Shown: one piece after another, positions 38,685-39,716 of the stretch | Numbering within the stretch: position 1 is the first letter of the stretch | Layout of the letters: the number at the start of each line of letters is the position of its first letter | Assembly (NCBI RefSeq): GCF_001542855.1 | Contig: NZ_LNBY01000015.1 | Location: 62,001 to 126,000, forward strand | Direction of reading: 5' to 3' | Origin: Erythrobacter sp. AP23 | GTDB taxonomy: Bacteria > Pseudomonadota > Alphaproteobacteria > Sphingomonadales > Sphingomonadaceae | DNA length: 64,000 nt | Program-made: the position numbers and the translations under genes | The notes under the pieces: generated by a model | What the model was told of the DNA's origin: nothing | The model's input: only the letters and a program-made list of their open reading frames with translations | Databases searched by the model: none

Positions 38685-39107
38685 TCAGCCGCTGCGATGA
38701 TAGGGGTGCCCGGCGATAATCGTCGTTGCGCGATAGAGCTGCTCGGCGAGCATGGCACGCGCCAGCAGGTGCGGCCAGGTGGCCTTGCCGAAAGCGAGCA
38801 GCAAGTCCGCTTCGCGCCGCTCCTCCGGCGCATGACCGTCGGCCGCGCCAAGCACGAAGCGGCATTCACGCATGCCGTCGTCGCGCCAGCGTTCGAGGAT
38901 TTCCGCCAGTTTTTCGGAAGAGAGGTCCTTTCCGCGCTCATCCAGCAGCACGGTTTTGCAAGGCGTCAACGGATCGGCGGTGCGACCGCCGGTTTCGGGC
39001 AATTCGGTAATCTTCACCGGCCACGTCAGTCGCTTTTCATAACGCGCGACAAGATCCGCTTCGGGTGAGCGTGCGATCTTCCCGCGAGCGATAATGTGAA
39101 GAAGGAT
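38685..39107 (-). CDS. rlmH: 23S rRNA (pseudouridine1915-N3)-methyltransferase RlmH, apparent non-standard start
   Basis: The SPOUT methyltransferase acts on 70S ribosomes at position 1915 of 23S rRNA. LHIIARGKIARSPEADLVAR at the start, VLLDERGKDLSSEKLAEIL, CRFVLGAADGHAPEER and RAMLAEQLYRATTIIAGHPY at the end are diagnostic. Family alignment puts the start at the Ile-Leu-Leu-His position, but the codon there is ATC (39107-39105). It has GGAG exactly 8 bases upstream and would give 140 residues. The only standard start in frame is ATG at 39194, which would add 29 unusual residues. Either a near-cognate start or an extended protein is used. Confidence 0.88.
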   Translation of the reverse strand: MLLHIIARGKIARSPEADLVARYEKRLTWPVKITELPETGGRTADPLTPCKTVLLDERGKDLSSEKLAEILERWRDDGMRECRFVLGAADGHAPEERREADLLLAFGKATWPHLLARAMLAEQLYRATTIIAGHPYHRSG

Positions 39108-39215
39108 AGGAAGTGCTCCGGGAATAGCGCCTGAACCATCACGGCGGCGGATCGGCAAGGACCACCGCTCCCGACAGGCCGAAGCGCAGACCACGGTCGA
39201 CCGCGCGTATGCAGC

Positions 39216-39231
39216 CGCGGACGCGTCCGCG
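39216..39231. repeat. Perfect 16-base palindrome in the rsfS-rlmH gap
   Basis: CGCGGACGCGTCCGCG is fully self-complementary. It contains CGCGTCCGCG, the core also found in hairpins at 7941-7950 and 10497-10506. It lies 22 bases upstream of the ATG at 39194 on the reverse strand. Confidence 0.6.
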
Positions 39232-39239
39232 AAGCCCCG

Positions 39240-39659
39240 CTAGGCCGTGCCGGCCACCGGCGGTGCGTCGCCGAACGCCCACATGCGCTCGAGGTTGTAG
39301 AAGCTACGCACCTCGGGACGGAACAGGTGGACCACGACGTCGCCCGCATCGAGCAGGACCCAATCGGCTGCCGGAAGCCCTTCGAGCTTCACCGGGCCGA
39401 AGCCCGCCTGTTTGACCTTCTCGGCCAGTTTCTGCGCCATTGCGGCGACCTGGCGGGTCGAGCGGCCCGAAGCAATCACCATGTGATCGGCAATCGAGCT
39501 CTTTCCCTCGAGATCGATCGTCACGACCTCCTGCGCCTGATCGTCGTCGAGCTGTTGCAATACCAGCTTGAGCAGCGGATCGGTTGTCGCGTCAGCCAAG
39601 TCGATCACCTGTGCCGAAGCGGTCCCGGATGCAGCCGGGCCTGTCTGCGCCTGTGTCAT
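39240..39659 (-). CDS. rsfS: Ribosomal silencing factor RsfS
   Basis: The 139-residue protein binds uL14 and blocks 50S-30S joining in slow growth. The domain covers about 20-130, with LLKLVLQQLDDDQAQEVVTI, DHMVIASGRSTRQVAAMAQK, WVLLDAGDVVVHLFRPEVRS and FYNLERMWA. I used the ATG at 39659; AGGAG lies 14 bases upstream, rather far. A TTG 17 codons upstream lacks a site. The order nadD-rsfS-rlmH is widely conserved. A palindrome and a 132-base gap separate it from rlmH. Confidence 0.92.
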   Translation of the reverse strand: MTQAQTGPAASGTASAQVIDLADATTDPLLKLVLQQLDDDQAQEVVTIDLEGKSSIADHMVIASGRSTRQVAAMAQKLAEKVKQAGFGPVKLEGLPAADWVLLDAGDVVVHLFRPEVRSFYNLERMWAFGDAPPVAGTA

Positions 39660-39716
39660 AGGCGATTGCGGTACTCCTGAAATGAGAGGCTTGGGCCATG
39701 GGAGGGACAACGCGCA

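Follow-up and report, generated by a model that had tools for sequence, protein, structure and literature searches.

Which codon starts translation of rlmH in Erythrobacter sp. AP23, where the position at which the conserved N-terminus of the protein would be expected to begin is occupied by an ATC and not by an ATG, GTG or TTG? RlmH is the SPOUT methyltransferase that acts on pseudouridine 1915 of 23S rRNA, and its gene lies on the minus strand of the 64,000-nucleotide stretch of contig NZ_LNBY01000015.1 that was analysed here (in the following ‘the window’, with position 1 as its first letter). The window protein matches Pfam PF02590 with 113.1 bits against a cut-off of 27, and all nine NCBIfam models that match it are RlmH models. 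It misses the NCBIfam equivalog cut-offs for RlmH, the best match being NF000989 with 145.6 bits versus a cut-off of 169, and has 140 residues versus 151–160 positions in these models; it is filed here as a predicted RlmH on the Pfam match and homology alone.

The codons that follow the ATC, i.e. CTT CTT CAC ATT ATC GCT CGC GGG AAG, encode LLHIIARGK, the conserved N-terminus of RlmH. A first-pass annotation of this DNA had proposed that the gene starts at this ATC, with a GGAG eight bases upstream, and that the product has 140 residues; the coordinates of both elements are right when read on the minus strand, and the length was recovered (table 1). Its account of the region further upstream had to be corrected in two respects. 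The supposed ATG at position 39194 is a GTG, and this is not the single standard start, as an in-frame TTG at 39158 with a GGAG of its own (39171–39168) had been overlooked. Two standard starts are thus available between the preceding in-frame stop codon and the conserved block. With no ATG, GTG or TTG at the conserved start itself, and with a near-cognate codon plus a Shine–Dalgarno-like sequence instead, the locus nevertheless fits the picture of a natural near-cognate-start gene, and we would put the probability that the ATC is the translation start of rlmH at roughly 85%.

Table 1. Elements of the rlmH start region in the window (duplex energies refer to the Shine–Dalgarno-like sequence of the respective start).
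Feature	Position	Strand	Basis
rlmH coding region, ATC to stop (140 residues plus stop)	38685..39107	-	Pfam PF02590 match, open reading frame, sequence
Putative start codon ATC	39105..39107	-	sequence; start position by alignment in 98/98 loci
GGAG, Shine–Dalgarno-like, 8 nt 5' of ATC	39116..39119	-	sequence; duplex energy -5.8 kcal/mol
Rival in-frame start TTG, 17 codons 5' of ATC	39156..39158	-	sequence; extension composition non-coding-like
GGAG, 9 nt 5' of rival TTG	39168..39171	-	sequence; duplex energy -7.0 kcal/mol
Second in-frame standard start GTG, poor Shine–Dalgarno	39192..39194	-	sequence; duplex energy -2.4 kcal/mol
rsfS–rlmH intergenic region, 132 nt	39108..39239	-	
Open frame of upstream gene, presumably rsfS	39240..39710	-	open reading frame

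Further evidence for the ATC comes from the comparison with sister species that the first-pass annotation had recommended. In the genus, rlmH was detected in all but one of 60 genomes (59), from which 30 loci were taken, and from a search of named genomes the best 80 of at least 562 confirmed rlmH loci were used. The loci L001–L111 (n = 111) collapse to 98 distinct ones, which were picked by their closeness to the window and not by their start codon. At the aligned start position these 98 loci carry ATG (49), TTG (21), ATT (14), ATC (8), GTG (5) or ACG (1), i.e. in every one of them the codon is at most one substitution away from ATG; at seven neighbouring codons that were tested this is the case in 1 to 21 of the 98 loci. 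The aligned position therefore behaves like that of a start codon and not of an arbitrary isoleucine codon. Moreover, 11 of the 23 loci with ATT, ATC or ACG contain no ATG, GTG or TTG at all between the preceding in-frame stop codon and the conserved block, which strengthens the case for a near-cognate start. Two cultured strains with ATT, Qipengyuania mesophila YG27 (L033) and Aurantiacibacter luteus KA37 (L080), belong to the loci that lack a standard start. When the set was enlarged to 141 distinct loci, some of them chosen by an ATH pattern so that near-cognate codons are enriched, 55 had ATT, ATC or ACG at this position and 35 of these 55 lacked any standard start. ATA and CTG were found at the rlmH start in none of the 98 or 141 codons. 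In L075 and L091, a stop codon directly adjoins the ATC or ATT of rlmH. Taken together, these alignments indicate that AUC and AUU are very likely real and recurrent start codons of rlmH in the Erythrobacter-related group.

This recurrence also bears on the possibility that an ATG at this position has been obscured by an error in sequencing or assembly. The assembly is a 20-contig draft, and no support for such an error was found. Against it stand the near-cognate codons of the relatives, in the unpicked as well as in the enriched set, and the fact that nine of the near-cognate loci come from named or numbered strains (L033, L040, L042, L048, L068, L073, L080, L091 and L110). With the same codons recurring across relatives, error was rejected as a general explanation, and for the window it is hardly credible.

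A more serious alternative is that this particular genome starts rlmH at the TTG at 39158, which would give a protein of 157 residues with a 17-residue extension and turn the ATC into an ordinary isoleucine codon. The TTG is in frame, and its GGAG forms a slightly better Shine–Dalgarno duplex than that of the ATC (table 1), which is the reason why we keep it as a rival for the window. Furthermore, an upstream in-frame NTG with a site as good as this one is not commonplace, being present in only two of the 49 ATG-start and none of the 21 TTG-start loci. The extension itself, however, looks non-coding, with G or C in 13, 12 and 7 of its 17 codons at codon positions 1, 2 and 3, respectively, although these are few codons. 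The would-be N-terminal extensions of the near-cognate loci in general also resemble non-coding DNA, as their GC contents at the three codon positions (0.64/0.57/0.66) are close to those upstream of ATG-start loci (0.65/0.62/0.65) and differ from those inside rlmH of the near-cognate loci (0.70/0.46/0.73). Nor could an upstream start of this type serve the 11 near-cognate relatives that have no standard start, and in the 11 other near-cognate loci with an upstream alternative it is the near-cognate codon that has the better site in 10, L083 being the exception. Upstream initiation as a general rule is thus ruled out by the loci without a standard start and by the composition of the extensions, and initiation at the TTG in the window appears quite improbable. 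A start further downstream, for which a GTG is available in some loci roughly 19 codons into the gene, was likewise set aside; it would delete the conserved LLHIIARGK segment.

In the lack of a standard start, rlmH contrasts with its neighbours. The same test, when applied to four genes next to rlmH that we take to be rsfS, an envC-like gene, a ctpA-like gene and nadD, gave 0/94, 0/55, 0/71 and 2/93 loci without a standard start, respectively; the difference between rlmH (11/98) and the pooled neighbours (2/313) has a p-value of 4.5e-6 in Fisher's test with relatedness ignored. Since nadD has no standard start in two of its 93 loci, rlmH is not the sole gene with such cases. An automated scan of syntenic genes in 10 relatives reported an apparent lack of a standard start in 23 of 275 gene instances, and in 49 of 280 in a second run, but these figures are too noisy to serve as a control, because they include alignments that extend past true starts and some shadow-like frames; judged from the printed rows, most of the apparent lacks lie upstream of any plausible start. 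As to the two nadD loci, L109 and L082, which have no ATG, GTG or TTG, the gene apparently starts at a CTG that overlaps a TGA.

How far does the near-cognate start extend beyond the closest relatives? Among the matches listed for genus group g3, which is probably Erythrobacter, the 41 sampled genomes have ATC (15), ATT (8), ATG (12), GTG (4) or TTG (2), i.e. ATT or ATC in 23 of 41. These codons come from an order-wide pattern search, whose motif matches were tallied by hand, and 26 of the 41 were re-read by protein alignment with the same result. At the family level, where the ATH pattern covered LLH-type N-termini only, 19 of 397 sampled genomes match, distributed over 10 genus groups, and none of these 19 has ATA, even though the pattern admits it. 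Further out, the 70 class-level, i.e. alphaproteobacterial, loci that were read (of 117 matches) all have an ATG (54), GTG (11) or TTG (5) no more than two codons away from the aligned start, and the 30 best-scoring of 100 phylum-level matches, two of them alphaproteobacterial, have ATG (19), GTG (9) or TTG (2); near-cognate rlmH starts were thus found in none of these 100 loci. Between close relatives, on the other hand, the start codon of rlmH drifts among ATG, GTG, TTG, ATT and ATC. On the rlmH tree, this corresponds to a minimum of 19 switches from near-cognate to NTG codons or back with 98 rows and of 31 with 141 rows, counts that are rough because the tree is weakly resolved, with 27 of 138 inner branches starred and 11 independent pairs on starred branches.

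A core Shine–Dalgarno 4-mer is present in 19 of 23 near-cognate loci, compared with 10 of 26 TTG or GTG loci and 15 of 49 ATG loci. In phylogenetically independent pairs, however, the link between near-cognate codon and Shine–Dalgarno sequence is not significant (median p 0.51), and since the signal in the raw counts is lost after this pairing, we do not claim that a strong Shine–Dalgarno sequence compensates for a weak codon. Special RNA structure is not apparent at the start in the window, where the region 39060–39240 folds no better than shuffled sequences (z -0.89), and near-cognate and ATG loci do not differ in RNA folding between -30 and +36 (p 0.25). Searches for a promoter-like or terminator-like site near the rsfS–rlmH gap of the window and for Rfam families in the window gave no match.

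If the ATC is the start, the ribosome would be placed by the GGAG eight nucleotides upstream of the AUC, and the initiator tRNA would read this codon with a third-base mismatch, which predicts an RlmH with methionine as its first residue and a low rate of synthesis. From the general biochemistry of near-cognate starts, one would expect the ATC to be used in vivo, to give little product and to respond to IF3. Non-standard starts lower output and IF3 represses the sigR GTC and infC starts, according to excerpts of PMC5472188, and AUU and AUA starts in Staphylococcus aureus yield less than AUG, according to excerpts of PMC13009471. The likeliest reason for a weak start may be a low need for RlmH, with a weak codon plus an adequate Shine–Dalgarno sequence being either tolerated or favoured. 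The substrate of RlmH being the assembled 70S ribosome (PMC5430550, in excerpts), one may guess that little enzyme suffices. Mere tolerance of weak starts leaves the absence of ATA and CTG unexplained.

In likening this start to that of infC, the first-pass annotation had gone a step further, to an expression of rlmH that is sensitive to IF3 levels. In its strong form this would be a selected control point at which the level of IF3 sets RlmH output. Such control would add to a weak start rather than exclude it, and it can draw on the repression of non-standard starts by IF3 (PMC5472188, in excerpts), on the near-cognate rlmH codons of the relatives and on infC of the genus itself. In all 30 infC loci that were read (L161–L190, from 58 genomes with a match), among them that of the strain's own genome (G000:C16:41515-41712, L189), an ATA stands exactly 8 nt after a GGAG at the conserved N-terminus, and an in-frame ATG follows 8 codons downstream. 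Because of the invariance of this codon and its spacing from the GGAG, we take ATA to be the infC start, which from these alignments it probably is. The rlmH codon, in contrast, varies even among close relatives, as the spread over the 98 loci illustrates, and thus shows none of the conservation expected of an infC-like IF3-controlled start; by comparison, the GTC of Streptomyces sigR is found in 32 of 34 species (PMC5472188, in excerpts). With infC keeping its codon while that of rlmH drifts, a conserved IF3 circuit for rlmH is unlikely. What stands of the first-pass proposal is therefore the near-cognate start, supported by its recurrence, and not the infC-like control. The evidence does not point to a dedicated IF3 circuit, although one may exist, and rlmH is probably a case of low-output translation from a weak start.

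The initiator tRNA may be considered in the same context. A search of 13 genomes gave matches to genes of initiator-type tRNA-Met in 11, including the strain's own (G000:C17:129697-129773, L347:80-156), and ARAGORN assigned tRNA-Met to three initiator-type copies that were checked, again including the own one. The anticodon stem of initiator tRNA usually has three G–C pairs. All listed copies have a TCAGG/CCTGA anticodon stem, in which A29–U41 (in what we take to be the standard numbering) presumably replaces the first of these pairs. The same pair also occurs outside the family, elsewhere in the order, and so cannot account for the distribution of rlmH starts. A further and rather doubtful idea is that natural IF3 gating acts on rlmH in the Erythrobacter/Qipengyuania group: AUU and AUC starts, gained and lost repeatedly, would tie methylation of ribosome helix 69 to the stringency of initiation in bacteria with an A29–U41 initiator tRNA.

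Among known systems, pcnB of E. coli has an AUU start. It resembles rlmH in that a non-standard start limits an RNA-related enzyme without self-control, but is not known to extend beyond one lineage, whereas rlmH switches repeatedly among related genera. The start of infC is ATT in E. coli and ATC in Streptomyces (PMC5472188, in excerpts) and AUA in S. aureus (PMC13009471, in excerpts). Like rlmH, infC is a translation-apparatus gene with an AUH start beside a good Shine–Dalgarno sequence; it differs by the constancy of its codon in the genus, and E. coli IF3 regulates itself, while RlmH is no initiation factor. As far as the excerpts of PMC5472188 go, sigR of Streptomyces shares with rlmH a non-standard start, which is repressed by IF3 and was missed by annotation, but sigR is regulatory, its codon is conserved and belongs to another class, and the IF3 effect was shown for sigR. 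Finally, cvfC1 (AUU) and ccpN (AUA) of S. aureus also combine such starts with strong Shine–Dalgarno sequences and have an output below that with AUG; in contrast to rlmH, they were mapped experimentally, have conserved codons and are other genes in another phylum (PMC13009471, in excerpts).

Programs that predict starts rely mainly on ATG, GTG and TTG (PMC5472188, in excerpts), and rlmH is therefore likely to be misannotated in these genomes, i.e. extended, shortened or missed. Among the matches listed in a search of titles and abstract openings of the open-licence literature, we found no paper on the rlmH start codon, and PMC7938551 has nothing on rlmH expression or its start. rlmH very likely represents an uncommon natural case in which translation begins at a non-standard codon, and the extent to which its start has switched is unusual. 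The switching among cultured relatives provides a natural series in which the trade-off between weak start, Shine–Dalgarno strength and IF3 could be measured, and which also allows one to ask why AUU and AUC are used and not AUA or CUG.

The rsfS–rlmH gap itself shows some variety. In many relatives (e.g. L157, L148 and L101) it contains a repeat of about 100 nt that is rich in hairpins and occurs in either orientation; this orientation shows no significant link to the codon class of rlmH (p 0.23). In a BLAST search with one copy of the repeat, three genomes had two to four matches apiece, and none of these lay in the window's own gap. In L075, the gap upstream of rlmH is 377 nt long and holds, after rsfS, an additional open frame (107 codons), whose TAG directly adjoins the ATC of rlmH, an arrangement that suggests translational coupling.
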